Part shown: in pieces, positions 7,402-22,851 of the stretch
Numbering within the stretch: the first letter of the stretch is position 1
How the letters are laid out: each line of letters begins with the position of its first letter
Origin: Pseudomonadota bacterium
GTDB taxonomy: Bacteria > Pseudomonadota > Alphaproteobacteria > Dongiales > Dongiaceae
DNA: 64,000 bases
Assembly: GCA_021792365.1 (NCBI GenBank)
Contig: JAJYUT010000006.1
Span: 62,001-126,000, forward strand
Direction: 5' to 3'
The notes under the pieces: model-generated
What the model was told of the DNA's origin: nothing
The model's input: the letters and a program-made list of their open reading frames with translations, nothing else
Databases searched by the model: none
Position numbers and translations under genes: made by a program

Positions 7402-7425
7402 CGATGGACCAGTCCCGATCCATCG
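7402..7425 (-). terminator. Intercistronic hairpin between binding-protein and permease genes
   Basis: CGATGGACC (7402-7410) and GATCCATCG (7417-7425) pair into a 9-bp stem, with one G-U wobble in the transcript, around a 6-base loop. No T-run follows in the direction of transcription. A partial terminator or 3'-end stabiliser is therefore more likely than a full stop. Such hairpins commonly let the periplasmic protein outnumber its permeases. Confidence 0.55.
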
Positions 7426-7444
7426 TTCCACTATCAACCAAGTG

Positions 7445-8485
7445 CTATTGAGCCTGCCAGTCGTACCACCGTGTGTTGATACGGTCGATGTTCTGTTGCC
7501 AGTAGCCCAAATCGATCGTGATTTGGCCCTCTGGGTGGCTGGACGGAAGCGCCGGCAAGACGGCCTCAGCAACCAGAGCCGGCGAACCGGTATTGACCGG
7601 CCCATACGCCGTCAGCTCGGCGAATTCCGCTTGTGCCCGTGCCGTGACAATCTCGGCGATGAGCTTCATGGCTGCTTCTTTGCGTTTCGTGCCTTTCGGA
7701 ACGACAACGTAGTCCGCTGTCGTGAAGTTATCCCTCCATGACACGCCTACGGGGGCGCCCGTCGTCTGCAGCATATGCATACGGCCGTTCCAGAACATGC
7801 CGATCGACGCCTCTCCAGAGGCCAGCTGCTGTTGCGCCTGGGCGGCGGAATCCCACCACACGATCTCCTTTTTGATGCTGTCGAACTTCTTGAAGGCGCG
7901 ATCGAGATCCAGCGGATAGAGCTTGTCCGGCGCGACGCCGTCGGCCAGAAGCGCCGCCTCCAGCATGCCAGGAGCCAGCCATTTGGTGATGGAGCGGCCC
8001 CCCGGGTAAGTCTTGGTGTCGAATAGCGCCGACCAGGTTTCCGGCTTGGCATCACCGAGAACGGCCGTGTTGTATCCCAGCACCCATGACCAGGTATTAC
8101 TGCCGATGCCGTAATCGAACACATATCTCGGATCGACGCCGGCCTGATCGATGATGGAATAGTCGAGGGGTTCGAGAAGCCCCTCGGCGGCCGCCTTGTA
8201 GGCAAAGCTGCCTTCGACGTCGACAACGTCCCAGGTGACATTTCCGCTTTCGACCATGGCTTTGAACTTGCCATAGTCCGTCGGGCCGTCGTGCACGACC
8301 TTGATGCCGGTCGCCTTTTCGAAGGGATCAGTCCATGCCTTCTTCATGGCATCCTGCCCTTCACCACCCCACCCCACAAAGGTGACGGTCTCCTCTGCGA
8401 GCGCGCAGCCGATTCCAACGGTCGACGCGACGAGCATTGCCGCCACGCTTAACCGCAGCGCTCGCAGTCGCTGGTTCTTAGACAT
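7445..8485 (-). CDS. Periplasmic substrate-binding protein, PotD-like
   Basis: A 346-residue extracellular solute-binding protein with a Sec signal peptide: a basic start, a hydrophobic core about residues 12-28 and a likely cut after CALA, before EETVTF. The VTFVGWGG start and the WDVVDVEG and WFNG-like segments (FWNGRMHML) are typical of the spermidine/putrescine-type cluster, which also binds betaines and opines. A strong CAGGAGG site precedes the ATG. It is the first gene of the importer operon, transcribed away from the acyl-CoA synthetase gene at 8705. Aromatic residues in the pocket would suit a quaternary ammonium group, but I cannot assign the ligand. Confidence 0.92.
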   Translation of the reverse strand: MSKNQRLRALRLSVAAMLVASTVGIGCALAEETVTFVGWGGEGQDAMKKAWTDPFEKATGIKVVHDGPTDYGKFKAMVESGNVTWDVVDVEGSFAYKAAAEGLLEPLDYSIIDQAGVDPRYVFDYGIGSNTWSWVLGYNTAVLGDAKPETWSALFDTKTYPGGRSITKWLAPGMLEAALLADGVAPDKLYPLDLDRAFKKFDSIKKEIVWWDSAAQAQQQLASGEASIGMFWNGRMHMLQTTGAPVGVSWRDNFTTADYVVVPKGTKRKEAAMKLIAEIVTARAQAEFAELTAYGPVNTGSPALVAEAVLPALPSSHPEGQITIDLGYWQQNIDRINTRWYDWQAQ

Positions 8486-8704: not shown

Positions 8705-10888
8705 ATGGCTGCAACCCGTTCCATGGCAGCGCGCAAGACCGAGCGCCGCAGCAACCTCGCCCGGCTGTTCTCGCCACGGCACATCGCGTTTATTGGCGGC
8801 GACGAAGCGGCGGAAGCGGCGCGGCAATGCCGCACGATCGGCTTCGGCGGACAGATGTGGGCCGTCAATCCGAAGCGCAGCAATCTGGCCGGCCTGCCCT
8901 GCCTTGCCAGCGTGGAGGATCTCCCCGAACCGCCCGATGCCTGTTTTCTCGCGGTGCCAAGCAAGACCACGGTGGACATACTGGGCAAGCTCGCGAAACG
9001 GGGGGCTGGCGGCGTGGTCTGCTACGCTGCAGGTTTCCGCGAGATCGGCAGCAACGGCGAACAACTCGAGCGGGCGCTCATCGAGGCGGCAGGATCGATG
9101 GCCCTGGTCGGACCGAACTGCTATGGCGTCCTCAACTACGTGAAGGGCATAGCGCTCTGGCCGTATGGCCAGCCCGGACGCCTGGTCGAACGCGGCGCCG
9201 CCATGATCACGCAGAGCGGTATGTTCGCGATCAACCTCACCTTCAGCCAGCGATCCGCCGGATTTTCGCACATCATCAGCGCCGGCAACCAAAGCGTCCT
9301 TGGCATCGAGGACTACATCGATTTCCTGCTCGACGATCCGGCCGTGGTCGCGATCGGCCTCCATATCGAGATGCTGCGCAATGTATCGAAGTTCGCGCGC
9401 GTGGCGCTTCAGGCCGTCCATAGGGGCATTCCGATTGTCGCGTTCAAGACCGGTGCCTCGCAGATAGGCAGTCACCTGACCATGAGCCACACGGGCTCTC
9501 TCGCAGGTTCGGATGACGTCTACAACGCGCTGTTCGACCGGCTCGCCATCACCCGGGTCGATACACCGGCGCAACTGATCGAGACCTTGAAGATGTTCAC
9601 CCTGGGCGGGGTGCCGAAGGGACCGCGGCTGGCCGCCTTCACCTGCTCCGGCGGCGATTCCGAAATGGTGGCCGATTGGGCCGAGCGATTTGGCGTCAGT
9701 CTGCCACAACCTTCCGAAGCCGTAAGGGAGCAATTGTCCAGCCAACTTGGCCCGTTTGCGACGGTCAGTAACCCGCTCGACTACAACACCGCCATCTGGG
9801 GAAACGAGCAACGCGTGGCTGCAGCCCATGCCACCTTCCTGGAACAAGGCTTTGACGCCGCCGTCCTCATCCAGGATTATCCGCCGCTCAATTCCGATAT
9901 CGATCGGGTCGGCAATCTGGCCGACATCCGCGGATTCTTGACCGCAGCGCGCAGTGCGGGCGTGCCGGCCGCCGTCTGCAGCACCATTCCGGAGTGTTTG
10001 ACAGAGGATGTGCGCGACCTTGTCATCGCGCACTCCGCGGCACCGCTGCAAGGCATTCGCGACGGCCTGTTCGCGATCTCGGCCGCCGCCGGATACGGAG
10101 CGCGGCGCCGGGCGCTGATCGCGGCCGGTGCCGGTCATCACGAGCTGGTCGAACTGCCGCCCGCGTCACCGTACTCTCCCCGTCTGCTGGACGAATGGGA
10201 GGGCAAGCAATTCGTCGCCGCCATCGGCGTGCCAATTCCGGCCGGAAGGTTGTGCTGCGAGGCTGACGCTCCAGCGGCAGCCTCGGCGATAGGGTTCCCT
10301 GTCGCCGTCAAACTGATCAGCGCAGGGCTGCCGCACAAGACGGAGGCCGGAGTGGTAAAACTCGGCATTCCGGATCCAGCGGCCCTGCGCAATGCGATCC
10401 AGGACATCAAGCGTTCGGCGGCGGCGCATTTCGGCAGTGCCTGCCCCGACAGCTTTCTGGTCGAACGCATGGCGTCGAAGCCGGTGGCCGAGATGATGGT
10501 GGGCGTCCGCCGCGACTCGCAGTTCGGCTTCGTCCTAGTCGTGGGCGCGGGCGGCACGCAGGTCGAGGTCAACCGCGATCTCGTTACGCTGCTCCTCCCG
10601 GCAAGCCGGGAGGATGTCGCGGCGGCGATCGGTCGATTGCGGATCGCTCCAATCCTCGCGGGCCATCGCGGCCAGCCTGCCGGCGATGTCGATGCCTATT
10701 GCGACACCGTGCTGGAGCTGGCCGCGCTCGCCCTGTCGCATGCCGCCAATCTCTACGAATTGGAGCTGAATCCAGTCATGGTGCTGCCCCGTGGCAGCGG
10801 TATCGTTGCCGTAGATGCCTTGCTCCGATTGGCGGACGGCCGCAGTCCTCAAAATCAACCACCACCTTACGGGCAAACGGGAGCTTAA
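8705..10888 (+). CDS. NDP-forming acyl-CoA synthetase
   Basis: A 727-residue fused alpha-beta acyl-CoA synthetase of the ADP-forming acetyl-CoA synthetase family. It has an N-terminal CoA-binding Rossmann domain (about 15-130), a succinyl-CoA-ligase-like domain carrying the phospho-histidine in SHTGSLAGSD, and a C-terminal ATP-grasp domain (about 490-700). It makes an acyl-CoA from acid, CoA and ATP. It is followed after 3 bases by the 3-dehydrocarnitine cleavage gene. The natural guess is activation of gamma-butyrobetaine, crotonobetaine or carnitine, or of the acetoacetate released downstream. ATGs at 8705 and 8723 are both possible starts; I kept the first. Confidence 0.88.
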   Translation: MAATRSMAARKTERRSNLARLFSPRHIAFIGGDEAAEAARQCRTIGFGGQMWAVNPKRSNLAGLPCLASVEDLPEPPDACFLAVPSKTTVDILGKLAKRGAGGVVCYAAGFREIGSNGEQLERALIEAAGSMALVGPNCYGVLNYVKGIALWPYGQPGRLVERGAAMITQSGMFAINLTFSQRSAGFSHIISAGNQSVLGIEDYIDFLLDDPAVVAIGLHIEMLRNVSKFARVALQAVHRGIPIVAFKTGASQIGSHLTMSHTGSLAGSDDVYNALFDRLAITRVDTPAQLIETLKMFTLGGVPKGPRLAAFTCSGGDSEMVADWAERFGVSLPQPSEAVREQLSSQLGPFATVSNPLDYNTAIWGNEQRVAAAHATFLEQGFDAAVLIQDYPPLNSDIDRVGNLADIRGFLTAARSAGVPAAVCSTIPECLTEDVRDLVIAHSAAPLQGIRDGLFAISAAAGYGARRRALIAAGAGHHELVELPPASPYSPRLLDEWEGKQFVAAIGVPIPAGRLCCEADAPAAASAIGFPVAVKLISAGLPHKTEAGVVKLGIPDPAALRNAIQDIKRSAAAHFGSACPDSFLVERMASKPVAEMMVGVRRDSQFGFVLVVGAGGTQVEVNRDLVTLLLPASREDVAAAIGRLRIAPILAGHRGQPAGDVDAYCDTVLELAALALSHAANLYELELNPVMVLPRGSGIVAVDALLRLADGRSPQNQPPPYGQTGA

Positions 10889-10891
10889 TCC

Positions 10892-11779
10892 ATGAATCGC
10901 GATGTCATCATCACCTGTGCCGTAACCGGCTCAGGCGACACGGTCGGGCGGCATCCCGCCATTCCCGTTACGCCGGCGCAGATTGCCGAGTCCGCGATCG
11001 AAGCGGCAAAGGCCGGTGCCGCAGTGGTGCACTGCCATGTGCGAGATGTAAATACCGGCAAGCCTTCACGCGATCCCGCACTGTTTCGCGAAGTGGTCGA
11101 GCGGATCCGCGACAGCGTTGTCGACGTCATCATCAACCTGACGGCCGGAATGGGCGGCGATTGGCAACCCGACGAGACGAACCCTGCCTTGCCGGGCGCC
11201 GGCACGGATATGGTCGGTCCGGCTGAGCGGCTGGCCCACGTCGTCGCGCTGCGCCCGGAGATCTGCAGCTTGGATTGCGGCACGCTGAACTTTGGGAATG
11301 GCAACACCATCTATATAAGCACGCCCGCATATCTCCGTACCATGGCCGAGACGATCCGCGCTCATGGCGTGAAGCCCGAACTCGAGGTCTTCGATCTCGG
11401 CCACCTGCGATTCGCCAAGCAGCTCATCGCCGAGGGCCTGATCGAGGCCCCGCCACTATTTCAGCTCTGCCTCGGGATCCCGTGGGGAGCGCCCGCCGAC
11501 ACTGCGACCATGAAAGCCATGGCGGATGCACTGCCCGAGGGAGCCATCTGGGCCGGCTTCGGCATCTCGCGTGACGAGATGCCGATGGCCGCTCAAGCGA
11601 TGCTGCTGGGTGGCAATGTCCGGGTCGGCCTGGAAGACAATCTCTATCTGGACAAGGGAGTCTACGCCACGAACGCCAGCCTGGTTGATCGGGCAGCGCG
11701 AATCGCGGGTCTGCTCGGAGCACGCATTCTTACGCCTGCCGAAGCGCGCGAAAAGCTCGCCTTAAAGCGTCCCAACTGA
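10892..11779 (+). CDS. cdhC: 3-dehydrocarnitine cleavage enzyme (BKACE/DUF849)
   Basis: A 295-residue beta-keto acid cleavage enzyme. Family marks are the start ([14 protein letters not shown]), the metal-binding [16 protein letters not shown], the ...[14 protein letters not shown] segment, [15 protein letters not shown] and the [11 protein letters not shown] motif. These enzymes transfer the acyl part of a beta-keto acid to acetyl-CoA. The version with this GMGGDW and GTLNFG pattern next to a carnitine dehydrogenase matches my recollection of the Pseudomonas carnitine gene, which converts 3-dehydrocarnitine and acetyl-CoA to betainyl-CoA and acetoacetate. It lies 3 bases after the acyl-CoA synthetase and 34 bases before the dehydrogenase. 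Substrate assignment rests on family resemblance plus context. Confidence 0.87.
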
Positions 11780-11813
11780 CGACACGCAAACTCTTGTGGC
11801 CGGGGGCTACCAT

Positions 11814-12782
11814 ATGAAATTCGAAGAGGCGAAATCGATCAAATCCGTCGCAATTGTGGGTACAGGCGTCATCGGCAGCGGTTGGGCCGCTCGCTACCTG
11901 GCGAATGGACTGCACGTGCGCGCCACCGACCCTGCACCGGGCGCGGAGGATCGCCTGCGCCGAGATGTCGACCGCGCTTGGCCGGCTATCACGCGTATGG
12001 GTTTGAAAGCAGGCGCCGACCGCAGCAATCTCACCTTCACCGCACGACTGGGGGATGCAGTCCAGTCGGCCGACTACATTCAGGAGAACGCGCCGGAGGA
12101 TGAAGCGCTGAAAGCCCGTCTGATGGCCGAGATCGATGCCGTCGCGCCCGAGCAGGTGATAATCGCGTCCAGTTCGTCAGGCTTGTTGCCGTCGAGAATA
12201 CAAGCAAACTGCCGGCATCCCGAGCGGGTCGTGATCGGCCATCCGTTCAATCCGGTCTATCTGATGCCGCTGGTGGAGGTTCTCGGCGGGCAAGCGACGC
12301 GTCCGTCGGCGCTCGATATCGCGTTCGACTTCTATCGTGGCATCGGCATGTCGCCCCTGCGGGTGCGCCAGGAAATTCCCGGCTACATTGCCGATCGCCT
12401 CCAGGAGGCCCTTTGGCGGGAAGCACTCCATCTCATCAACGATGGCATCGCGACGACTAAGGATATCGACGAAGCCATATCCAACGGCCCGGGTGTCCGT
12501 TGGGCCTTCATGGGCACCTGCCTCACCTTTCACTTGGCTGGCGGCGATGGCGGCATGGCGCATACCCTGGCGCAGTTCGCCCCAGCGCTGAAGTTGCCTT
12601 GGACCAAGCTGGTGGCACCCGAACTCACCGAGGAGCTTTCGCGCCGTCTGATCGAAGGCACCGCCGAGCAGGCCAAGGGTCAATCCGTGGAAAGCCTCGT
12701 CCTGCAGCGGGACAACCGCATCGTCGACATCATGATCGCGCGGGACAAAGGAGCCAGCCAGGCGACGCACTCGCGAGGGTGA
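11814..12782 (+). CDS. cdhA: L-carnitine dehydrogenase (3-hydroxyacyl-CoA dehydrogenase family)
   Basis: A 322-residue NAD-dependent dehydrogenase. It has an N-terminal Rossmann fold (VAIVGTGVIGSGWAARYL), the SSSSGLLPS loop, the catalytic histidine in GHPFNPVYLMPLVEV and a C-terminal helical domain. The HPFNPxYLxPLVEV block and the ~320-residue length are typical of carnitine 3-dehydrogenases, which oxidise L-carnitine to 3-dehydrocarnitine. I chose the ATG at 11814, preceded by GGGGG, over a GTG at 11796. It follows cdhC, so its product would feed the neighbouring enzyme. It converges on a thioesterase gene 17 bases downstream. Confidence 0.87.
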   Translation: MKFEEAKSIKSVAIVGTGVIGSGWAARYLANGLHVRATDPAPGAEDRLRRDVDRAWPAITRMGLKAGADRSNLTFTARLGDAVQSADYIQENAPEDEALKARLMAEIDAVAPEQVIIASSSSGLLPSRIQANCRHPERVVIGHPFNPVYLMPLVEVLGGQATRPSALDIAFDFYRGIGMSPLRVRQEIPGYIADRLQEALWREALHLINDGIATTKDIDEAISNGPGVRWAFMGTCLTFHLAGGDGGMAHTLAQFAPALKLPWTKLVAPELTEELSRRLIEGTAEQAKGQSVESLVLQRDNRIVDIMIARDKGASQATHSRG

Positions 12783-12799
12783 AAACCCCGCAGCCCGCC

Positions 12800-13267
12800 T
12801 CATCCGCACTGCGGCGGCAGCGACATGCATCCGTGGAGCGGATGAAAGGAAAAGGCGTCGCGATCGACCCGCCCGGCAAGCTGCTCCAGCACGGAACTCG
12901 CGAAAGGGCGCACGCGCCGGTCATTGAGATTAAAGCTGAGGCACAACAGCAGGACCGTGGCGCAGAGCTGATCGCCGGATTCGATCTCATGCAGCAGTAG
13001 CATTCTCTTCTCATCATAGTCGGCGAGGCTGGTGGCGATCTGGAACCGGTCTCCCAGGCGCAGCTCGCGCGCATAGCGAACATGAATGTCGACGATGACA
13101 AATTCAGCCCCCGCGCGCTCCTTCTGCCCGCGCCCATCGTTCATCGCCGCCCAGAATGCCATGGTCGCGACGTCCGCAGCCCTCTGGTAATCCAGGTATC
13201 CCATATGCCCGAGCTCGTCGATCCACTCGGGAGGGACCACGGACTCGAGAAAGACCGTGTGCTTCAC
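12800..13267 (-). CDS. Hot-dog acyl-CoA thioesterase, probable betainyl-CoA thioesterase
   Basis: A 155-residue single hot-dog-fold thioesterase (4HBT type) with the typical WIDELGHMGYLDYQR active-site helix region near residues 15-30. It starts with GTG at 13267, overlapping the dehydrogenase stop as GTGA, so coupling is likely. In carnitine clusters a thioesterase of this size hydrolyses betainyl-CoA to glycine betaine, and some carnitine dehydrogenases carry this domain fused at the C-terminus. Here the two are separate but overlapping. Carnitinyl-CoA is an alternative substrate. Confidence 0.8.
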   Translation of the reverse strand: MKHTVFLESVVPPEWIDELGHMGYLDYQRAADVATMAFWAAMNDGRGQKERAGAEFVIVDIHVRYARELRLGDRFQIATSLADYDEKRMLLLHEIESGDQLCATVLLLCLSFNLNDRRVRPFASSVLEQLAGRVDRDAFSFHPLHGCMSLPPQCG

Positions 13268-14229
13268 ACTCCGCTCCCCGTTCTCCCAGGACCGGAGAGA
13301 GCGTGGCGCACGCGGACAACGCCGTCATCGCGCACGCGCTCGAGCTCTTGACGGCTCTTTCCGCCCACCGAAGCCGCGACATCTTCTATATAGCGCCCCC
13401 TCAGCGCGCGGGTGATCCTGAACGCGTCAGGGGCGATATGGCCTTGTTCCAAGGCGTCGGCCAGACTGTCGACGAACGTGTCGTATCGTGCCGCATCGGA
13501 CGCCCCCAGATAGAAGATGCGCGACGGCCCATTGACGGCCCAGCGGATCGCCGGACCGTAGGTGATCGCATCGTCGATCTCTGCGACGGAGGCGACGCCC
13601 GATTCGAGCAGGTAGAGGATTTCCTTGAAAACCGCATTCTGGATGCGATTTGCGATGTAACCCGGAATCTCCTTCCGCAGCACGATGGGGTGGCTGCCGA
13701 CGGAGCGATAGAACTCCACGGCCCTGGCGACCTGGACGGGATCGCCGCCTTCACCACCCACCACCTCGACCAGCGGCACGAGATAGGGTGGATTAAAGGG
13801 ATGGCCGACGAGGATCCGGCCGCCCGATTGGCAATCCCGGCGGAGGGAATCGGCCAGAAAACCGGCGCTGCTCGAGGCCACGATGATTTCCGGCGCGAGC
13901 CGCGCATCCAGATCGGCAAGAAGACGAATCTTCAGCGCCTCGTCCTCGATGGCGCTTTCCTGGACGAAATCCACGCCATCAATCGCCTCGTCAAGATTGG
14001 TGGTGAAAGACAGCCGATCGGGCGAAGCGTTCTTGGCAAGGCCAAGCTTCTCCAGCGTGGGCCAAGCGTGTCGTACCTGGTCATAGAGCTGCTGCCTTGC
14101 CTCAGGACGCTGATCATAGGCTCTCACGCGCAGGCCGGCGCGCAGGAAATGGGCCGCCCAGCCGCCGCCGATCAGGCCCACGCCGAAACAGCAAACGGTT
14201 CGGATCTCTCTGCCCCTGGCTTGGCTCAT
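13264..14229 (-). CDS. Second carnitine-dehydrogenase-like 3-hydroxyacyl dehydrogenase
   Basis: A 321-residue paralogue of the plus-strand carnitine dehydrogenase. The Rossmann motif is FGVGLIGGGWAAHFL, followed by the SSSAGFL loop and the catalytic histidine in GHPFNPPYLVPLVEVVGG. The Ser/Thr content of the loop and the C-terminal domain differ, so it may take the other enantiomer (D-carnitine) or a related beta-hydroxy acid. It is coupled to the thioesterase by a GTGA overlap and lies downstream of two acyl-CoA dehydrogenase genes. That order fits oxidation of a saturated acyl-CoA followed by hydration and dehydrogenation. Confidence 0.82.
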   Translation of the reverse strand: MSQARGREIRTVCCFGVGLIGGGWAAHFLRAGLRVRAYDQRPEARQQLYDQVRHAWPTLEKLGLAKNASPDRLSFTTNLDEAIDGVDFVQESAIEDEALKIRLLADLDARLAPEIIVASSSAGFLADSLRRDCQSGGRILVGHPFNPPYLVPLVEVVGGEGGDPVQVARAVEFYRSVGSHPIVLRKEIPGYIANRIQNAVFKEILYLLESGVASVAEIDDAITYGPAIRWAVNGPSRIFYLGASDAARYDTFVDSLADALEQGHIAPDAFRITRALRGRYIEDVAASVGGKSRQELERVRDDGVVRVRHALSGPGRTGSGV

Positions 14230-14268: not shown

Positions 14269-15423
14269 TCACCGCGACGCATAATTGTCGGGATCGAAAC
14301 AAGCCACGTAACGCTGAAGATGATGGTTCTCGTCGCCAAAGCTGGTGCGGATCCCGTTCAGCCTCTTCAGGTAGTGACCCACCGGATGCTCCCGGGTCAT
14401 ACCGATGCCACCATGCAGCTGGACACATTCCTCGCCCACCTTGCGTGCCGTGGCACCGACCCGTAGCTTGGCGGCAGAGCACATGCGCGTTCTCAGCGCC
14501 GCATCGTCGCTCTCGAGGGCGGCGACGGCTCCCATCGCAATCGACTGGGCCATCTGGCACTGCGTGTAGACGTCGACCATGCGATGCTGCAACGCTTGAA
14601 ACGAGCCGATCTTTTGCCCGAACTGCGTGCGCACCTTCATATAGTCCAGCGTGAGGTGGTACGCCGCCCACATTGCGCCCACCGCCTCCATGCAGATCAT
14701 TGCGGCGGCGACATCAAGCACGCGGCCCAGGAGCTCGGCGCCCTGGCCGGGCCGGCCGATGACGTCCTCTGGTCCGGCCCGGACCGAGCTGAAATGAATG
14801 GTCGCGGTCTCGCTGCCGTCGCGCATTCGATGGGGCTCAACGCGTATACCGGCGGCAGCTCTTGGAACGGCAAAGATGGAGAGCCTGCCGTCTCCTGGGC
14901 CGTCGGCGCTGCGCGCCGCCACCAGGAGGCAGTCCGCCAACCCGCCATCAAGAACGAACGTCTTGGAACCGGAAATCTCGTAGTCGCCGGCGACCGGCCG
15001 GGCAACAGCCGCCATTCGCGAGAGGTCCGAACCTGCGCTGCTCTCCGCATAGGCCAGCGCCACCCGCATCTCGCCTGCGCAGATCTTGGCCAGAAACCGT
15101 TCTTTCTGCCGGGCCGATCCGCAGTGCAGCAGCATCGTTCCGCCGAGCACCACGCTCGAGAGATAAGGACAAGGCAGTAGCACGCGACCCAATTGTTCCA
15201 TGACCAGAGCCATATCGGTGGTTGAGCCACCGATGCCGCCATAGGCTTCCGGGAAGGGTGCAGCCAGCCAGCCGAGCTCCGCGATGGACCGCCATTCCGC
15301 GTCGCTGAACGCAGCGGCGTCGGATCTCGCGCGCAGGCGATCGCCAATGGCATGGCGATCAGCGAGAAAGCGCGCCACGCTGTCGCGGAACATCACTTGC
15401 TCTTCAGTTAGCCAGAATTCCAT
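14269..15423 (-). CDS. Acyl-CoA dehydrogenase-like subunit (FadE type), 384 aa
   Basis: A flavoprotein of the acyl-CoA dehydrogenase family, with an N-terminal helical domain, a central beta domain (AYAESSAGSD, residues about 120-130) and a C-terminal helical domain ending in QLHGGIGMTREHP. Where medium-chain enzymes carry the catalytic glutamate (YEGT), this protein reads FGDE, so the base is an aspartate or is supplied elsewhere. It lies 12 bases after the second acyl-CoA dehydrogenase. Such adjacent unequal pairs can form heteromeric enzymes. A plausible substrate is gamma-butyrobetainyl-CoA, giving crotonobetainyl-CoA for the CaiD-like hydratase. Confidence 0.87.
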   Translation of the reverse strand: MEFWLTEEQVMFRDSVARFLADRHAIGDRLRARSDAAAFSDAEWRSIAELGWLAAPFPEAYGGIGGSTTDMALVMEQLGRVLLPCPYLSSVVLGGTMLLHCGSARQKERFLAKICAGEMRVALAYAESSAGSDLSRMAAVARPVAGDYEISGSKTFVLDGGLADCLLVAARSADGPGDGRLSIFAVPRAAAGIRVEPHRMRDGSETATIHFSSVRAGPEDVIGRPGQGAELLGRVLDVAAAMICMEAVGAMWAAYHLTLDYMKVRTQFGQKIGSFQALQHRMVDVYTQCQMAQSIAMGAVAALESDDAALRTRMCSAAKLRVGATARKVGEECVQLHGGIGMTREHPVGHYLKRLNGIRTSFGDENHHLQRYVACFDPDNYASR

Positions 15424-15435: not shown

Positions 15436-16620
15436 TCACAGTCCGAGAACAGCTTTGCTGACGATGTTCTTTTGGACCTCGCTGCTGCCGCCATAGATCG
15501 ACGTCTTGCGGAAGTTCAAATATGCCGTCGCAATCCACGTGTCTCCTTCGGCATCGGAGTATTCAGGGTCGATCTGGGCGCTCTCTCCCAGGGCGATCAT
15601 CATGAGTTCGAGGATTGCCTGCTGTACTTCGGTTCCACGCACCTTCAGGATCGATGCCGCCGCAGCCTCGGAGCCGTCCTCGTCGGAGAACAGCAGGCGG
15701 ATCTCGGCAAGTTCCAACGACATCAGATCGATTTCGAGTTCCGCGATCTGCCGCGCGAACCATGGCGAATCCAGCAGGCGGCCGCCATCGGATCGCGGTT
15801 CTGTCGCGATGCGCTTCAGGCGCAGCAGACTACGGATGGAACGCGACACCTCGGCGATGCCGAAGCGCTCGAGGCTCAGCAGGTGCTTGGCGATATTCCA
15901 CCCATGGTTCTCGTCCCCTACGCGGTTCTCCACCGAAACCCGAAGGTTATCGAAGAAGACCTGGTTCACCTCGTGCCCGCCGTCGATCGTGACGATCGGG
16001 GAGATGGTGATGCCGGGCGAGCGCATATCGATCAGCAGGAAGGTTATGCCTTCCTGCTTGCGGCCGGAGCCGTCGGTGCGAAACAGTCCGAACATCCAGT
16101 CCGCGATGTGTGCCTCCGTCGTCCACATTTTGGTCCCGTTGATGACATAGCTCTCACCGTCGCGGACCGCCCGGCACTGAAGCGCGGCGAGATCCGAACC
16201 CGCATTCGGCTCCGAGAAGCCTTGGCACCAGAACTGATCTCCATTCACGATTCCAGGCAGAAAGCGGTCCTTCTGTGCCTGGTTGCCAAAAGCGATCAGC
16301 GTCGGGCCAAGCATCTGCACGCCCATGACGATGGGGCGCGGCGCGTCTGCGAGCGCTGTTTCACGTTCGAAGATATATTGCTGCTCGATGGTCCAACCGG
16401 GGCCGCCGAACTGCCGCGGCCACCCGGAACAGGCCCACCCCTTGCGCGCCAGGATTTTCTGCCAGCGCTGCTGCTGCTCCCGGCTGAGGTCCATCCGTTC
16501 GGCGGACACGGCAAGGCGGATGTCCTCCGGCAGTTCCGCGCGCAGAAAGGCCTGTACCTCCTCTCGGAATTTTCCCAGCCAGGGCGCCGCCAAACGATTT
16601 GTCACATCCAAGTCGGCCAT
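15436..16620 (-). CDS. Acyl-CoA dehydrogenase-like subunit (FadE type), 394 aa
   Basis: The partner acyl-CoA dehydrogenase. Visible parts are the N-terminal helical domain, the flavin-binding WCQGFSEPNAGSDLA and WTTEAHIADW segments, and a C-terminus ending IYGGSSEVQKNIVSKAVLGL. The IYGG pattern has glycine where the catalytic glutamate of medium-chain enzymes lies. In the IYGGTSE subfamily the base comes from another helix or from the partner subunit. It precedes the smaller dehydrogenase gene with a 12-base gap. Electrons would pass to ETF, encoded at 39.9-41.6 kb. Confidence 0.88.
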   Translation of the reverse strand: MADLDVTNRLAAPWLGKFREEVQAFLRAELPEDIRLAVSAERMDLSREQQQRWQKILARKGWACSGWPRQFGGPGWTIEQQYIFERETALADAPRPIVMGVQMLGPTLIAFGNQAQKDRFLPGIVNGDQFWCQGFSEPNAGSDLAALQCRAVRDGESYVINGTKMWTTEAHIADWMFGLFRTDGSGRKQEGITFLLIDMRSPGITISPIVTIDGGHEVNQVFFDNLRVSVENRVGDENHGWNIAKHLLSLERFGIAEVSRSIRSLLRLKRIATEPRSDGGRLLDSPWFARQIAELEIDLMSLELAEIRLLFSDEDGSEAAAASILKVRGTEVQQAILELMMIALGESAQIDPEYSDAEGDTWIATAYLNFRKTSIYGGSSEVQKNIVSKAVLGL

Positions 16621-16663: not shown

Positions 16664-16978
16664 TCAGGCCAGTGGCGAGAATGCAGCGGGACTCAGGATC
16701 CTGTTGCTGCCCTCTTCGATCAGCGACGCGATCCTGGGCAGGAACGCGACCCAGGCCGGATCCGCCATCAGTGCGGCGCGGCGGCGTGCGCGGTCTTCGA
16801 GATCGACGAACGCCCAGATATGCGTGATCTCATTCAGCGGTCCGATCTCCGTCGAGAAGTAGCCGACGAGGTTGCCGAGATGCCGGCGCTGGATCGCGAT
16901 CCCCTCGCCCGCCACGAGACGAAGATATTCCGGAACGGCGCCGTTTCTGAGCCGATAGGTGCGCTGCTCATAGATCAT
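16664..16978 (-). CDS. NIPSNAP-family small protein
   Basis: A 104-residue protein with the NIPSNAP pattern: a start of MIYEQRTYRLRNGAVPEYL, then GNLVGYFSTEIGPLNEITHIWAF, and a C-terminal helix. These are ferredoxin-like dimeric alpha-beta-barrel proteins, often encoded beside oxygenases. The biochemical role is unknown. Its ATG overlaps the stop of the DUF1185 gene as ATGA, so the two are probably made in fixed ratio. Confidence 0.75.
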   Translation of the reverse strand: MIYEQRTYRLRNGAVPEYLRLVAGEGIAIQRRHLGNLVGYFSTEIGPLNEITHIWAFVDLEDRARRRAALMADPAWVAFLPRIASLIEEGSNRILSPAAFSPLA

Positions 16979-17571
16979 GCCCGAGCGGCCCTTTCTTCCT
17001 CCAGCTTCGCCATGTCGATGTAGCGATTGCCGATCCGCGGATGCAGGCGTCCGCCGGTGCTGGCACCGAGCGCCACGACAACCTCATCTGCCGCGGGAGC
17101 ATCGGCTATCGTGAACTCGATCGTGAGGTAATGCGAACGCATCCCCTCGTCGTTCTTGTGCATCATAGGAATGGCGATGCCGCAGCCCGGCGCGCCGCGC
17201 TTGTTGGTAAAGCTCAGGTAGCTCGTGCCGTCGACGGCCTGCCGGAAGATGTTGCCGAAACGCAGGGTGTGGATGAGCGCCGACGCGTGCTCGATCTCGC
17301 CAGCCGTGCCGACAACGGCGGCCTTGCCGTAGGCCTCCACGCCGTCCTTGCCGCCGCACCGATCGAGAATGATTGGCACCAGGATCTCGCCGAGCCGCGG
17401 CGCGGCCGCCAGGATCTCCGGTTGCAGATCTTCCGTGAATCCCCGCCCCGCCCAGGGATTGTTCAGCACCGCCGCAGCGGCAACCATGCGCACCGGTTTT
17501 GCTCCGGCCTTACCCCCCTCAACGAGGACATCCTCGGTGAAGGTGACGATCTTGCGAAGCTGGAGGTGCAT
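16975..17571 (-). CDS. DUF1185 'amino acid synthesis' family protein
   Basis: A 198-residue protein starting MHLQLRKIVTFTEDVLVEGG, which matches the family usually labelled amino acid synthesis protein (DUF1185). The label is historical and the function is not established. I chose the ATG at 17571 because this family starts at that motif; an in-frame start at 17628 would extend into the promoter-like AT-rich stretch. It is the first gene of a likely operon that continues through NIPSNAP and the two acyl-CoA dehydrogenases. The luciferase-like monooxygenase gene lies upstream on the same strand, suggesting a shared but unknown oxidation step. Confidence 0.72.
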   Translation of the reverse strand: MHLQLRKIVTFTEDVLVEGGKAGAKPVRMVAAAAVLNNPWAGRGFTEDLQPEILAAAPRLGEILVPIILDRCGGKDGVEAYGKAAVVGTAGEIEHASALIHTLRFGNIFRQAVDGTSYLSFTNKRGAPGCGIAIPMMHKNDEGMRSHYLTIEFTIADAPAADEVVVALGASTGGRLHPRIGNRYIDMAKLEEERAARA

Positions 17572-17609
17572 GAACCTGCTGATTCCGATAAAAGCCGTGA
17601 TCGATGTAT

Positions 17610-17638
17610 ACTGTATTATGGTATTCATATTATGTCAA
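17610..17638 (-). promoter_or_regulatory. Sigma-70-like promoter for DUF1185-NIPSNAP-ACAD genes
   Basis: Reading leftwards, TTGACA (17633-17638), a 17-base spacer and TACAGT (17610-17615) lie about 40 bases before the ATG at 17571. The spacer contains TAATATGA, similar to part of the 5595-5623 operator, so control by the same GntR regulator is possible. Confidence 0.5.
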
Positions 17639-17703
17639 TGCAGGCACCTAGCGACGCGGCATCCCTTCCGCCTGCCATCGGTCGGCGCTGCGCCCCGTTG
17701 CTG

Positions 17704-18741
17704 CTATCGGAAAGCTGGCATCACCTCGGAGACAAACAGCTTCATCGACTCCCTCTGCCGCTCCATCGGCAAGCCGTAAGAGGCGTAGTAGATGAAGTTG
17801 TCGACGCCCAACGCCTCGTACCGCTTCAGCTTGGCGACGATCTCCTCGGGCGTTCCGAACATCAGGTTGGTCCGCAGCATCTCCGAATCGTATTCGGCCC
17901 GATGAACCAGGCTGGCGAGATTGATCTCCGCCGGGAATCCGTTCTCCACGCCACCTTCACCGCGGAAGAGGTTCTCAAATTGCCCTGCGGCGCGCTTCAG
18001 AGAGTTCAAGAAAAGCTCAGCATCCTTCTGGCTGCCATAGACCCCCGTGTGCCGCATGGTGGCGAAGCGCGGTCGCGTGGTGCCGGGGACCTTGCCGAGA
18101 GAATCGTGGAATCGCTGCATATAGCTCTCCACCTCCGCGAAATCGCGGGTGAGCGCCCATGTCATGACACTGAGGCCGTTGCCCACGGCCCAGTCAAACG
18201 AGACCGGGTTCCGCACAGCCGCCCAAAGTGGCGGATGCGGTTTCTGCAGCGGCTTCGGGCAGGCAGTGGCCTTCGGAAAGGACCAGTGCTTGCCATGGTG
18301 CTCGACATCGCCCTGCCAGAGCTGCTTCAGGAGCGGCAGCATTTCCAGCATGTAAGGGACGCTCTCTTGCGCCTTCAGCCCGTTCGCCATCCGATCGAAT
18401 TCGCGCTGGTACGCGCCGCAGCCGATGCCGAACTCCAGTCGGCCATTGGTCACCAGATCGCAGAGGGCGGCTTCGCCGGCGGCGCGGATTGGGTGCCAAT
18501 AGGCCGCGACCACAACGGCCGCACCCAATCGGATCGAATTGGTGTGCTGCCCCCACCAGGTCAGGAGCTGGAAGGGATTGGGCGCGATGGTCATTTCTAT
18601 GGCGTGGTGTTCGGCCGCCCAGGCGATATCGAAGCCGCCGTCTTCGGCCATCTGCACCATCTCGAGCGTATGCCGCACGACGTCCCGCATGTCGATCTCG
18701 GGCCGCATGCGCTCCATGTTGATGGCGAGACTGAACTTCAT
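17704..18741 (-). CDS. Luciferase-like (LLM) flavin-dependent monooxygenase
   Basis: A 345-residue bacterial-luciferase-like TIM-barrel monooxygenase with AWAAEHHAIEM (an EHH active-site segment near residue 43), the GRLEFGIGCGAYQREF phosphate-binding loop and a long C-terminal region. It needs reduced FMN from a partner. The flavin reductase gene overlaps its start as ATGA, so they form a two-component system. Enzymes of this kind insert oxygen into amines, sulfonates or N-heterocycles; the trigonelline TgnAB pair is one known case. The actual substrate here is unknown. Confidence 0.85.
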   Translation of the reverse strand: MKFSLAINMERMRPEIDMRDVVRHTLEMVQMAEDGGFDIAWAAEHHAIEMTIAPNPFQLLTWWGQHTNSIRLGAAVVVAAYWHPIRAAGEAALCDLVTNGRLEFGIGCGAYQREFDRMANGLKAQESVPYMLEMLPLLKQLWQGDVEHHGKHWSFPKATACPKPLQKPHPPLWAAVRNPVSFDWAVGNGLSVMTWALTRDFAEVESYMQRFHDSLGKVPGTTRPRFATMRHTGVYGSQKDAELFLNSLKRAAGQFENLFRGEGGVENGFPAEINLASLVHRAEYDSEMLRTNLMFGTPEEIVAKLKRYEALGVDNFIYYASYGLPMERQRESMKLFVSEVMPAFR

Positions 18742-19268
18742 GACAACGGATCCTTTCCCCCGGTTTGCGGGGCAAGCGTGGTGTATCCACCCTGACTAAA
18801 GACAAGGGGCTGTGCTTGGCGCCGCGTGAAACCGACCACTTTTCCAAGCAGGACCAGGTGGTCGCCCGCCTCTAGGTCGCGGTAGCGACGGCAGTCGAGA
18901 TGCGCCAGTGTCTCCGGCAAGATTGGCGCGCCAGTGGCGCCGAGATGCCAAGCGAGACCGGAGAACTTGTCGGGTTGCGGCGTCGCGAAGCGCTGGGACA
19001 GATGCCGCTGATGATGCGCCAAAATATTGATGGCGAAGCCATCGGCCTGAGCGAGCGCGCGGCAGATCGGTGCGGCACTCGCCACACAGACCAGGACCAG
19101 CGGGGGGTCGAGTGAGACGGAGGTGAAGGAATTCGCGGTCATGCCACGCGGCGCGCCGGCGTCATCCAGCGTGGTGACGATCACGATGCCCGTGGCGAAG
19201 CAGCCGAAGACCCGGCGCAGCTCGCGATCGTCGACCCTGGCTGCGGGACCGCCAATTGCTTGCGTCAT
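18738..19268 (-). CDS. Flavin reductase domain protein (two-component monooxygenase partner)
   Basis: A 176-residue protein of the flavin-reductase-like FMN-binding split-barrel family, with the typical FATGIVIVTTLDDAGAPRGMTANSFTSVSLDPPLVLV N-terminal block. It would use NAD(P)H to reduce FMN for the luciferase-like monooxygenase, to which it is joined by an ATGA overlap. Its ATG at 19268 is followed by a normal-length product. No separate transporter lies between this pair and the PucR regulator upstream. Confidence 0.88.
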   Translation of the reverse strand: MTQAIGGPAARVDDRELRRVFGCFATGIVIVTTLDDAGAPRGMTANSFTSVSLDPPLVLVCVASAAPICRALAQADGFAINILAHHQRHLSQRFATPQPDKFSGLAWHLGATGAPILPETLAHLDCRRYRDLEAGDHLVLLGKVVGFTRRQAQPLVFSQGGYTTLAPQTGGKDPLS

Positions 19269-19391
19269 GCCCAGGAAAGCTCCGAATTCTGCATTGCCGC
19301 CAATATTAGCTAGTCCGGAGCACGGTCATCTTCCTCCCAGTGACAGCAAGAATCGACGGATCTTTGCTAGCTTTCCGAGCAAGCCCGCGCC

Positions 19392-21203
19392 TCAACGCGA
19401 GCCAAGCAGACGATGTATCCGCAAGGCAAACTCCAGCGTGAGGCGCGTATCCTGGTCGCTCAGATCCAGGGCGAACTGCTCGCTCAGCCGCTTCAGGCGG
19501 TAGCGCAGAGTGGTGACGTGAATGCCGAGGGCATCCGCGGTGGCCTGTTGGCGGTTGTTATGGGCGAAATACTGGTGGAGCGTCTCCAGCCATGGACCAT
19601 CCGTGTCACGCTCCATCTGTTGAATCCGACCGATCGTCTCTTGGACGAAACCGCGCAATCCATCGGAATCGGTGAGTGCGATAAGATGCCCGAGCGGACC
19701 GAAATCCTGGCTGTCCACAATCCCGGTCCGGGCCATTCTCTCGGCCAAGCCCAGCAAGGCTGCAACACGGTGCCGAGCCGGCGGATAGTCGTCGAGTTGC
19801 CGGCACGTTTCACCAAGGCAAGCAGTCGCCTTGGCTTGCGTGATCCACTCCACCTCCCGCAGCGCATTGTCGAGCACCTTGACGGCACCCCGTCGTCCAC
19901 TCTGCCGCTCCGGCATGAAGATGATCAGGGAGGAACCGTCCTGGAAAGCGGTCCCGCCGGGCAATACCCGATCCAGCTCTCGATTCACGGCATGCGTGAT
20001 GTCGTTCCAGAGCCTGTCTCGCCCATCGCTTGACGGCGGCAGACGCATTCCTGCGAGCCGGGCGGGCTCCTCCAGCGGGATATCCAGATGCTGCGCACGC
20101 GCCAGCATGGCGGCCGGATCCCTCCAATCCGCCGCGAACAAGCGTGAAAAATACTCGCTATGGGTCTCCGCCCGCGCCTCGAACCAGATGCGCCGCCGCA
20201 ACAGCAGGATCGTCAATGCCGTTCGCAGCTCGAGCGCGGTAAGCGCCTCGGCCGCCTCCAGCGGACGCCCCTTGGTCAGCAGCACGATGCCACCGAGCAC
20301 ACTGCCGCTCGCGATGCAGGGCTCGATGATCGCCTGGTGGCTATGCCCTCCGCCACCTGGAACGGCGGCGACGTGATCCATCGTGTCGAATTGCCCGAGC
20401 TTGGCCTCTCTCACGTGTCGCGCGAGGACCCGAAAAAAATCGCGTTGCTTGACCTCGGGCAAGGACACTGCGCCGCCACCCGCCTGCAATTTGTTGGTGG
20501 TAAGATCGACCAGCAAAAAGGGAAGTTTGAGGTAGCGAGCGGCTAGATCCGCAAAGCGCCCCAGATCCTCCGAGGTTAGCACCTGTTCCATCGCGATGTG
20601 ATGAATATCGAGCGAGGTCTGCAACCGCTCGTTCTGCTGTGCATCGAGACGGCGACGGTGAGCACGCTCAACTGCCAGAGAGGCGAGCAGCGCCACCGTC
20701 TCCAGGAAGGCGATTTCCTCCTCGTCGACACTGCGTTTTTGATGGGCGTGAACGGAAAGGACCAGGCCCCGGCCCAGTTCGTCAACCGTGCTGAACGGAA
20801 GCAGCACGACGGTACGATAGTCGCGCTCGATGGCTTCCTGTCGGTACGCCGGGAGAGAATCGTCTGCCTGCGCGTCGTCGATCACCATGGGGCGCCGGTC
20901 AGCCAAGACGCTCCGTATCGGACTTGTGCTCAGTGTCCAGCGGTCCGGCGACCGGTTCCGGCTGACGAATAGCGGGTCGTAGCGTGCCACGAGCACGGAA
21001 TGCCCCTCGGACTGGTCAGCCGCCATGATCGCGCTGCTGGACCAGGACGACCGTTGGCAAACGGCGGTGACTATAAGGTCGAGAACCTCCGAAAGTGCGC
21101 TGCCGGCATTCACCAGATTGGCGATGTAGCCAAGGCTTCTGATCCGCTCGGTGAGTCTATTCGCCGTTGCGCCCGGCAGTCCACCGTTGCGCGCGAGGGC
21201 CAT
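19392..21203 (-). CDS. PucR/CdaR-type transcriptional activator with GAF domain
   Basis: A protein of about 603 residues. The N-terminal half looks like a GAF sensor domain (about 60-190), the middle is a GGDEF-like PucR linker, and the C-terminus carries the PucR helix-turn-helix (NNRQQATADALGIHVTTLRYRLKRL). Such proteins activate catabolic genes after sensing a pathway compound. An ATG at 21227 would overlap the CaiD gene by 16 bases; the ATG at 21203, just after the hydratase stop, avoids this, and I list that one. It lies between the flavin reductase and hydratase genes, so it may control the monooxygenase module. Confidence 0.8.
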   Translation of the reverse strand: MALARNGGLPGATANRLTERIRSLGYIANLVNAGSALSEVLDLIVTAVCQRSSWSSSAIMAADQSEGHSVLVARYDPLFVSRNRSPDRWTLSTSPIRSVLADRRPMVIDDAQADDSLPAYRQEAIERDYRTVVLLPFSTVDELGRGLVLSVHAHQKRSVDEEEIAFLETVALLASLAVERAHRRRLDAQQNERLQTSLDIHHIAMEQVLTSEDLGRFADLAARYLKLPFLLVDLTTNKLQAGGGAVSLPEVKQRDFFRVLARHVREAKLGQFDTMDHVAAVPGGGGHSHQAIIEPCIASGSVLGGIVLLTKGRPLEAAEALTALELRTALTILLLRRRIWFEARAETHSEYFSRLFAADWRDPAAMLARAQHLDIPLEEPARLAGMRLPPSSDGRDRLWNDITHAVNRELDRVLPGGTAFQDGSSLIIFMPERQSGRRGAVKVLDNALREVEWITQAKATACLGETCRQLDDYPPARHRVAALLGLAERMARTGIVDSQDFGPLGHLIALTDSDGLRGFVQETIGRIQQMERDTDGPWLETLHQYFAHNNRQQATADALGIHVTTLRYRLKRLSEQFALDLSDQDTRLTLEFALRIHRLLGSR

Positions 21204-21211
21204 CGAAAGCG

Positions 21212-21997
21212 CTATCGCCCCCGCCATACGGGCGTGCGCTTCTCGGCGAATGCGCGGGCGCCTTCAATCTGGTCTTCGCTGGCGTAGAGAACGTCCACGG
21301 TACGAAAGCGCCGCTGATAGATGCGTCGCATTGCGTCGCTGAACGCCATATTCTCCGACTCGCGGGCAACCTCTTTAATGGCGGCGAAGACAAGCGGCGG
21401 ACCACCCGCAAGGCTGTTTGCCAACTCGCGGGCGCGGCTCATCAGCGCATCCCCTGGGACCGCCTCATTGATAACGCCGCGCTGCAGAGCCTCTTCGCAA
21501 TCCATCCAACGTCCGGTGAACAGCATGTCCATCGCGACGTGGTAGGCGATGCGCCGCGGCAACTTGATGGTCGCGGCATCCGCCAGCGTTCCTGAGTTGA
21601 TTTCGGGCAGGGAGAAGCGGGCGTGGTGCGCTGCAATGATCAGATCCGCGGACAATGCTAGTTCGAAACCGCCGCCGACCGCCATGCCGTTGACTGCCGC
21701 GATGATCGGCTTGTTGAGATTCGGCAGTTCCTGGATGCCGCCGAAGCCACCGATGCCGTAATCCGAACCCGGCCCTTCACCTGCTGCGCCCGCCTTGAGA
21801 TCCCATCCGGCGCAGAAGAATTTATCTCCGTGGCCGGTGATGATCGCTACGCGCAACTCCGGATCGTCGCGGAACTCCGCAAATGCCTCGCCCATCAGCC
21901 GGCTTGTCGGCGCATCGATCGCGTTGGCCTTCGGCCGGTTGAGCACGACCTCCAGAACCGGGCCGCGGCGCGTGACGTGAAGCGGACCATCCGACAT
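21212..21997 (-). CDS. caiD: Crotonobetainyl-CoA hydratase / carnitinyl-CoA dehydratase
   Basis: A 261-residue crotonase. The start (LNRPKANAIDAPTS), the FRDDPELRVAIITG block, FFCAGWDLKA, the oxyanion-hole region AAVNGMAVGGGFELALSADL and the ending AFAEKRTPVWRGR follow CaiD closely, as I remember that sequence. The glutamates of GGGFELAL and LPEINSG are where catalytic residues are expected. It would hydrate crotonobetainyl-CoA to carnitinyl-CoA, linking the acyl-CoA dehydrogenase pair to the carnitine dehydrogenase. It follows the GntR gene on the same strand with a 128-base gap. Confidence 0.85.
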   Translation of the reverse strand: MSDGPLHVTRRGPVLEVVLNRPKANAIDAPTSRLMGEAFAEFRDDPELRVAIITGHGDKFFCAGWDLKAGAAGEGPGSDYGIGGFGGIQELPNLNKPIIAAVNGMAVGGGFELALSADLIIAAHHARFSLPEINSGTLADAATIKLPRRIAYHVAMDMLFTGRWMDCEEALQRGVINEAVPGDALMSRARELANSLAGGPPLVFAAIKEVARESENMAFSDAMRRIYQRRFRTVDVLYASEDQIEGARAFAEKRTPVWRGR

Positions 21998-22125: not shown

Positions 22126-22851
22126 TCATCGTCTCGCTTCGCCCTTGCGTTGCCGAAGCACTTCCAGTGCCGCGGCGCAGGCCCTGCGCACATGGTCCTT
22201 GCAAGCCTCCTCGGCGTCATCGGGCGCCCGCCGGGCGATCGCTTCTACGATGCGGCGCATTTCGTGCAGGCTGCCAGGCGATCGGCCAGGCTGCGACATC
22301 GAGGTGACACGCAGATATACGATACGGGCATTGAGAGAGCGGATCGCATCCCGGATCAGGTCGTTTCCACAGCCTTCCAGGAAGACGTCGTAGAAATGTG
22401 TTGTCTCGCCTACGATTTTTTGAATGTCGCCCGACTGGAAAGCCCGCTCCAGGCGTTCATTTGCTTCGACAAGACGGCTCACCTCGCCGGCAGGCGCTCG
22501 CTGCGCGAAGAGACGGCCAGCCTGGCCCTCCAATGCCTCCCGCATCTCGTAAATCTGCTGCGCTTCTTCCAGCCCGACGGTCGCCACCGTGGGCCCTTTG
22601 TTCGGTATATTCCGGACTAGCCCTTCGGATTCGAGATGCCGCAGCGCTTCGCGCACACTGGTGCGGCTCACACCTGTCAATTCGCAGAGCTCCCGCTCGA
22701 TCAAACGATCGCCAGGCTTAAAACGCGCTTCCAGGATCGCGTTGCGCAGGACGTCAAGCACCTGCTGACGCAGCGTGATGTTATTGCGCTTCACGCGCAG
22801 CGACGATTGTTCTAGCCCGCCGACTTGCTCCGCCATGATCCTGGCATCCAT
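22126..22851 (-). CDS. GntR/FCD-family transcriptional regulator
   Basis: A 241-residue regulator with an N-terminal winged helix (about 25-90: RQQVLDVLRNAI, ELCELTGVSRTSVREALRHLESEGLV) and a C-terminal FCD effector domain with histidines (TTHFYDVFL, SLHEM, KDHVRRA) that typically hold a metal and a small acid ligand. The ATG at 22851 sits 6 bases from an ATATTATAGCT half-site, so autorepression is likely. The same element forms the inverted repeat at 5595-5623. It probably represses Region 1 in the absence of a pathway intermediate. Confidence 0.87.
   Translation of the reverse strand: MDARIMAEQVGGLEQSSLRVKRNNITLRQQVLDVLRNAILEARFKPGDRLIERELCELTGVSRTSVREALRHLESEGLVRNIPNKGPTVATVGLEEAQQIYEMREALEGQAGRLFAQRAPAGEVSRLVEANERLERAFQSGDIQKIVGETTHFYDVFLEGCGNDLIRDAIRSLNARIVYLRVTSMSQPGRSPGSLHEMRRIVEAIARRAPDDAEEACKDHVRRACAAALEVLRQRKGEARR

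Follow-up and report, generated by a model that had tools for sequence, protein, structure and literature searches.

A rearranged trigonelline-like gene module with a sister-subfamily oxygenase in an alphaproteobacterium of the Dongiaceae

We analysed a 64,000-nucleotide stretch of DNA (the window; positions 62,001 to 126,000 of contig JAJYUT010000006.1, assembly GCA_021792365.1) from an alphaproteobacterium of the family Dongiaceae, which encodes a flavin reductase, a luciferase-like FMNH2-dependent monooxygenase (LLM), a DUF1185 protein and a NIPSNAP protein. By analogy with the trigonelline (Tgn) pathway, we consider it probable that these genes make up the central part of a tgn-like (trigonelline-type) pathway that cleaves the ring of a small N-alkylated heteroaromatic betaine. 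We read them in this way because the gene set is the same, its linkage is conserved and the proteins are homologous; the chemical steps are drawn by analogy with trigonelline. What we describe is a real, rearranged trigonelline-like module with an oxygenase of a sister subfamily, ordinary in kind. The Tgn pathway was reportedly described in Acinetobacter baylyi ADP1 by Perchat et al. in 2018. Within it, TgnA and TgnB open the trigonelline ring, according to the available part of a later article (PMC8269262). The TgnB of A. baylyi has the UniProt accession Q6F9F6 (PMC11354265).

We searched the window proteins against Pfam at curated cut-offs and, for named enzyme families, against NCBIfam cut-offs. 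The genes lie on the minus strand, in order of transcription a regulator with GAF and PucR-type domains (19392-21227; HTH_30 65.5 bits and GAF_2 40.8 bits, both above the Pfam cut-off), a TgnA-like flavin reductase of 176 amino acids (18738-19268; Flavin_Reduct 147.4 bits, above the curated cut-off), the TgnB-like, sister-subfamily LLM (17704-18741; Bac_luciferase 161.8 bits, above the curated cut-off), a TgnF-like DUF1185/AA_synth protein (16975-17571; PF06684 234.3 bits against a cut-off of 27) and the NIPSNAP protein (16664-16978; PF07978 105.7 bits against 22.3). The DUF1185 gene has a longer open reading frame (ORF) that reaches 17628 through an upstream ATG. The reductase and LLM genes overlap by ATGA at 18738-18741, as do the DUF1185 and NIPSNAP genes at 16975-16978, and the coordinates and Pfam scores thus agree with the initial annotation, which had described two overlapping pairs under a PucR-type regulator. 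The LLM has an EHH motif (E44-H45-H46) that aligns to that of luciferase alpha. The reductase is 43-59% identical to the 11 LLM-linked reductases compared and lacks the C-terminal portion present in longer relatives, for example a 326-amino-acid Aminobacter reductase. The NIPSNAP gene is the sole copy found in the 5.4-Mb genome.

The remainder of the LLM module lies at 1897-8485, 8-15 kb from the NIPSNAP gene and also on the minus strand. It consists of a TgnC-like aldehyde dehydrogenase (ALDH; 3097-4581), a possibly TgnD-like alpha/beta hydrolase (4589-5425) and an ATP-binding cassette (ABC) importer with an ATPase (1897-2994), two permeases (5682-6482 and 6492-7370) and a substrate-binding protein (7445-8485). 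We assign these genes to the module because the three nearest relatives (loci L016, L017 and L018) carry them in one intact run of regulator, reductase, LLM, a GntR gene (in two of the three), DUF1185, hydrolase, ALDH, NIPSNAP, binding protein, two permeases and ATPase. The nearest LLM relatives are 83, 77 and 74% identical to the window LLM, and there are no acyl-CoA genes inside about 9 kb in these three. A homologue of the GAF-PucR regulator (43-59%) stands upstream of the reductase-LLM pair in each; the ALDH is 68-72% identical to theirs, and the hydrolase is 51-62% identical to those of the same loci and of L021. Among LLM loci of the same family, the ATPase has counterparts at 56-75%, as does the second permease at 65-78%; this permease was recognized by homology, having no Pfam match at 1e-5, and the first by Pfam. 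The binding protein belongs to the same clade as those of LLM loci L021 and L022 (71-72%). The genes named by the initial annotation are real, but the span it drew was too narrow, leaving out the ALDH, hydrolase and importer of the same window.

A fourth relative (L019) resembles these three but extends past the end of its stretch. Genomes G006 (L022/L122) and G010 (L021/L120) have an intermediate arrangement spread over about 20 kb, with hydratase, GntR, LLM, regulator, thioesterase, ligase, binding protein, permeases, DUF1185, hydrolase, ALDH, ATPase and Rieske genes; the reductase was detected in G006 only. Two further minus-strand genes of the window are associated with the module: that of a GntR/FCD regulator (22126-22851), a homologue of which (71-85%) stands beside the LLM in L017, L018, L019, L021 and L022, and that of a CaiD-like enoyl-CoA hydratase (ECH; 21212-21997), found at 79 and 76% identity in L021 and L022, there too near the LLM. 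The hydratase scores 322 bits to crotonobetainyl-CoA hydratase, below the cut-off of 500. A Rieske oxygenase accompanies the importer, ALDH and hydrolase within 673-8485.

To survey gene neighbourhoods, we searched several collections for the LLM. Of 61 genomes, 10 gave a match at E <= 1e-40, among them the genome of the window, and of 386 genomes sampled from the class, 31 did so at E <= 1e-90; we also used genome contigs from the best 80 of 563 relatives, a selection biased toward close ones, and 328 plasmid records. The genes around the LLM, mostly over 20 kb, were identified by BLAST against named reference proteins, by which small or divergent genes may be missed. Counts refer to 78 non-redundant LLM loci flanked by 7 kb or more on either side (49 of 127 were dropped for short flanks) and to 10 kb around the LLM (17 kb for the window), three very long rows and the root fragment of the LLM tree being excluded. 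In the class sample, 23 of the 31 LLM genomes have DUF1185, compared with 59 of the 355 without the LLM (Fisher p 4e-11, descent ignored). In 14 of the 31 the two genes are no more than 10 kb apart, against a chance expectation of about 0.002 per LLM. For this co-occurrence each genome was represented by its top LLM match; a second match exists in three genomes, with no DUF1185 on its contig. Across the 78 loci, we found DUF1185 in 53, the hydrolase in 58, ALDH in 61, all three in 47 and the reductase in 34. NIPSNAP was present in 11, each of which also has DUF1185; apart from the window's group, the loci that have it are L024, L025, L031, L032, L033, L115 and L118. We conclude that DUF1185, the hydrolase and ALDH are the core, with NIPSNAP as a minority partner. 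Co-occurrence in other genomes, on which the initial annotation had staked its proposal, was thus found. The genes are no orphan branch: LLM, DUF1185, ALDH and hydrolase travel together as they do in tgn-type clusters.

DUF1185 also occurs apart from the LLM: 59 of the 82 DUF1185 genomes of the class sample have no such LLM. The window's genome itself has two further copies elsewhere (L028, G000:C30:415439-417005), which are separated by a single small ORF and have no LLM match close by, and in 18 class-sample genomes two DUF1185 matches are merely 50-65 bp apart. An LLM cluster on Arthrobacter dokdonellae plasmid pDCT5 (L117:342-11068) has two adjacent DUF1185 genes and a tautomerase gene, along with genes for succinate-semialdehyde dehydrogenase (SSADH), riboflavin kinase and a NUDIX protein. 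Across 21 LLM-linked DUF1185 sequences, 51 residues are invariant. The AlphaFold model of the window protein (predicted local distance difference test score, pLDDT, 89.9) matches solved DUF1185 proteins (3byq, E 2.5e-19; 2qtp, E 9.4e-16), and on the strength of these invariant residues and this fold an enzymatic role is more probable for DUF1185 than that of a simple scaffold. A RidA-like fold was considered for DUF1185 but is not supported by a Foldseek search of the PDB, which at E <= 0.001 returned just two DUF1185 structures (three chains). The initial annotation somewhat overstated matters in saying that DUF1185 has no settled role: the accessible text of one report describes a DUF1185 protein homologous to TgnF, which stimulates TgnE-dependent succinic semialdehyde oxidation (PMC7913881). 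In the same text, the authors did not reproduce TgnF-type stimulation with their own DUF1185 protein, HcdD (PMC7913881).

For NIPSNAP, there are six solved relatives, none named for a function, three of which carry names (Atu, AGR) that point to Agrobacterium. We also asked whether NIPSNAP and RidA substitute for one another and rejected this: 1 locus has both, 10 have NIPSNAP only, 20 RidA only and 47 neither (p 0.27), a sample too small for a substitution reading. The locus with both is that of A. fabrum (L032), in which the RidA gene lies past the regulator, about 1.3 kb off, and adjoins an amino-acid deaminase gene on the opposite strand.

Clusters with reductase, LLM, ALDH, hydrolase, DUF1185, GntR and SSADH genes were found in Acinetobacter junii (L114), Sinorhizobium meliloti (L115) and Rhizobium leguminosarum (L118), and we infer from this gene content that they are trigonelline operons. 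The S. meliloti and R. leguminosarum operons have the gene set of L016-L018 plus SSADH; that of A. junii has the same set plus SSADH, with NIPSNAP and importer genes not found there. The window's DUF1185, ALDH, NIPSNAP and binding protein are 54-66% identical to those of the S. meliloti and R. leguminosarum operons, with NIPSNAP at 66% and 62%, respectively. Among trigonelline-clade loci generally, its DUF1185 is 57-69% identical to six DUF1185 proteins, its ALDH, encoded 12 kb from the LLM, is 55-58% identical to six ALDHs, and its hydrolase is homologous to five, at 34-38%. There is a fairly strong case that the window's pathway works like Tgn, and of the chemistries proposed by the initial annotation, the one that fits best is oxidation of the ring of an N-heterocyclic betaine, as the same genes make up trigonelline-type clusters.

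Identity with the Tgn pathway itself is not claimed, since the LLM belongs elsewhere in its family. We built an LLM tree of 131 rows, in which 44 of 128 inner branches have support under 80, three rows are very long and the root is arbitrary (the rooting row is a fragment of an ordinary LLM, 22% filled). The Acinetobacter, Sinorhizobium and Rhizobium LLMs form one 20-row clade (Shimodaira-Hasegawa-like approximate likelihood ratio test, SH-aLRT, 100) on a long stem (1.02). The window LLM falls outside this trigonelline clade, in a separate 6-row group (SH-aLRT 100). The luciferase EHH motif is intact in 126 of 127 rows, the remaining row being altered at its last residue. At 22 positions the trigonelline clade and the other LLMs each have a different fixed residue (>=85%). 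We take position 108, which aligns gap-free to Arg107 of bacterial luciferase alpha, beside its Cys106, to lie in the flavin pocket. All 20 trigonelline-clade rows have Arg there and all 6 rows of the window's group have Cys; the other 101 rows have Ser (76), Arg (22) or Lys (3). These residues suggest that the pocket is altered and, therefore, that the substrate is related but different. Because the LLM lies outside the trigonelline clade and has Cys108 in place of Arg, its substrate is probably a relative of trigonelline (another N-methylpyridinium carboxylate or N-heteroaromatic betaine), not necessarily trigonelline itself. Among the open-licence papers listed on DUF1185, trigonelline, homarine and pyridine ring cleavage, some of these lists being incomplete, we noticed no title or abstract opening that deals with this sister subfamily. 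Homarine came up as a possible substrate, owing to the marine clusters described below, and was set aside; the available portion of one article implicates Mgd in homarine catabolism (PMC13390433).

Between the two halves of the module lie carnitine-type and acyl-CoA genes. A carnitine-type cassette on the plus strand encodes an ADP-forming acyl-CoA ligase-like protein (8705-10888), a BKACE (10892-11779) and an L-carnitine dehydrogenase (CDH1; 11796-12782; 417.3 bits to NF005471, barely above the NCBIfam cut-off of 414). These are followed on the minus strand by a thioesterase (12800-13267), a second CDH-like dehydrogenase (13264-14229; 256.7 bits to NF005471, below the cut-off of 414) and adjacent PimD-like (14269-15423; 295.8 bits, cut-off 652.7) and PimC-like (15436-16620; 397 bits, cut-off 623.85) acyl-CoA dehydrogenases, which perhaps form a two-subunit enzyme. 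Support is mixed for the view that this is a separate set inserted in this genome. BKACE and L-carnitine dehydrogenase homologues occur in 16 of 17 family genomes, the window's included, adjacent to each other in 15 of the 16, and in the relatives these loci are distant from LLM matches. The window's genome has a second BKACE-dehydrogenase pair elsewhere (L157), flanked by dehydrogenase and hydratase genes, which is probably its usual carnitine locus. In the CDH tree, CDH1 groups with the family's carnitine loci (93), where LLM-linked L039 and one L132 row are also found; the remaining CDHs of LLM clusters form a 26-row clade (SH-aLRT 100), which lies apart from the L-carnitine dehydrogenases and also contains one row, L168, that is not LLM-linked. 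The second window CDH is a very long branch that cannot be placed. The dehydrogenase that adjoins NIPSNAP has homologues in 22 other genomes of the 61.

Several observations weigh against the tgn-like reading. The window LLM is just 37-40% identical to six trigonelline-clade enzymes, and the hydrolase 34-38%. The LLM has the non-trigonelline residue at 20 of the 22 clade-specific positions, and the reaction itself could differ from that of the trigonelline-clade enzymes. That clade was compared without the TgnB sequence of ADP1 and is named from cluster gene content, and the TgnA to TgnF assignments in our comparison are presumed ones. Of the 59 loci whose LLM is not in the trigonelline clade, 18 have at most one of DUF1185, hydrolase and ALDH within 10 kb, and no ORF in the window has an SSADH (TgnE) reference as its best match. 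Against a different substrate in particular, the binding proteins of L016-L018 show 64% identity to their counterpart in the R. leguminosarum operon. Finally, in the BKACE tree (midpoint-rooted) the window BKACE pairs with L165 (92), and the two lie on the LLM-linked side (89) rather than with the carnitine loci of the family, and at least two of ECH, CDH and BKACE are found near the LLM in 19 of 59 non-trigonelline loci, the window included, versus 0 of 19 trigonelline loci (p 0.004, descent ignored). The CoA chemistry may belong to the pathway after all.

In the version of this idea that would apply to the window, a heteroaromatic or other cation with a four-carbon acyl arm would have this arm shortened as for gamma-butyrobetaine, by the ligase, an acyl-CoA dehydrogenase, the CaiD-like hydratase, a carnitine-dehydrogenase-like enzyme and BKACE, before the LLM module opened its ring. 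Beyond the BKACE placement and the locus counts above, this gains from a second, largely marine cluster type with a recurring order, seen in L030, L055, L059 and L091: DUF1185, a fusion of CoA-transferase and flavin reductase, hydrolase and RidA, then a divergent run of ALDH, LLM, hydratase, CDH, BKACE, importer, acyl-CoA dehydrogenase and ligase. We detected the fusion of a class III CoA-transferase to the flavin reductase in 9 loci by BLAST over both halves (L030, L049, L055, L057, L059, L069, L086, L091 and L093), and by Pfam in Parasedimentitalea (421 and 128.3 bits). The fusion gene on Parasedimentitalea marina plasmid pW43B (L030:9028-11151) is annotated as a CoA transferase only. Loci L091 and L093 are from Ruegeria conchae and R. 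denitrificans. Across the 78 LLM loci, BKACE accompanies RidA (13 of 18 BKACE loci versus 8 of 60 others). The CDHs of marine-type clusters form the 26-row clade described above, and L128, a member of the window's LLM group, carries a CDH of this marine kind. Set against this, CDH1 of the window groups with the family's carnitine loci, its acyl-CoA dehydrogenase pair is of another kind and unlinked to the LLM elsewhere, the nearest LLM relatives are without CoA genes over about 9 kb, and the 19 trigonelline loci are a single clade, so that the comparison of counts ignores descent. We think arm shortening in the window unlikely. Somewhat less doubtful, but still tentative, is the broader proposal of a widespread second pathway that couples an oxygenase of the TgnB-sister kind to carnitine-like CoA chemistry for acyl-arm cations, with the window as a mixed, rearranged form. 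This pathway would differ from the trigonelline route and would employ a hydratase, BKACE, dehydrogenases of a distinct subfamily and, for the oxygenase, a flavin reductase joined to a CoA-transferase.

A plain trigonelline pathway with a fast-diverged TgnB appears improbable. The companions are identical in kind, the binding-protein identity noted above fits this reading, and in G002, of the same genus, the sole LLM match (E <= 1e-40) is a trigonelline-clade operon (L025). However, the LLM alone is out of step: R. leguminosarum and A. junii are 72% identical in LLM, 71% in DUF1185, 70% in ALDH and 55% in hydrolase, whereas the window and R. leguminosarum are 38% identical in LLM and in hydrolase, 60% in DUF1185, 57% in ALDH and 62% in NIPSNAP. 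The fixed Arg and Cys at position 108 of the two groups also argue against it. Least credible is the suggestion of the initial annotation that the LLM joins the adjacent acyl-CoA dehydrogenases in one branch or carries out N-methyl oxidation: their adjacency is seen in this window alone, homologues of the dehydrogenase that adjoins NIPSNAP are on a different contig from the LLM or megabases from it in the five relatives with both (G002, G004, G006, G010 and G050), in none of the other LLM neighbourhoods read does an ORF match either member of the pair best (other acyl-CoA dehydrogenases do occur near LLMs, in another cluster type), and nothing in this analysis speaks for N-methyl oxidation.

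In the tgn-like pathway that we favour, the ABC importer would take up the cation and the flavin reductase would supply FMNH2. The LLM, through a flavin hydroperoxide, is predicted to oxygenate the ring beside the charged nitrogen, which would open it to an N-formyl-N-alkyl enamine with an aldehyde end. ALDH would oxidize that end, and the alpha/beta hydrolase would cleave the enamide to formate, an amine and a C4-C5 acid or semialdehyde. DUF1185 and NIPSNAP may assist at an intermediate, by handling a tautomer, lactone or imine, and regulation would fall to the PucR/GAF protein and perhaps also to the GntR protein.

Elsewhere in the window (24328-64000), there is a further betaine and methylamine theme, with two creatinase/prolidase-like M24 genes, an alanine racemase, DAO/GCV_T proteins, a DmmA-like reductase, ABC importer genes and two more Rieske oxygenases, one of which scores 427 bits to GbcA against a cut-off of 670.

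Trigonelline and homarine, both N-methylpyridinium betaines, occur in plants and marine plankton according to the available part of PMC8269262, the homarine concentrations of which were subsequently corrected downward, as the accessible text of the correction states (PMC10134881). A sister oxygenase subfamily with the same companions but another pocket could mark the use of other N-methylpyridinium betaines, and annotation by homology alone would misread it as trigonelline use. The survey also ties NIPSNAP, and again DUF1185, to one kind of pathway, in which their roles are testable with defined intermediates.

Among known systems, the window shares with Tgn an adjacent flavin reductase and LLM, ALDH and DUF1185 homologues and perhaps, given an identity of no more than 34-38%, the alpha/beta hydrolase, and with the rhizobial tgn-type operons also the neighbouring importer and NIPSNAP, the latter not found in A. 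junii. It differs from Tgn in an LLM outside the trigonelline clade, in the PucR-type regulator upstream, in having no SSADH found in the window and in a module split by carnitine-type and acyl-CoA genes. The Rut uracil pathway consists of the LLM RutA, the flavin reductase RutF, the RidA protein RutC and the hydrolase RutD; the window shares its ring-opening logic of LLM, flavin reductase and hydrolase, but the window reductase scores 85.2 bits to RutF against a cut-off of 254.75. With carnitine and gamma-butyrobetaine catabolism it shares the gene families at 8705-14229 and 21212-21997, the difference being that this genome has a paralogous BKACE-dehydrogenase pair at its other locus.

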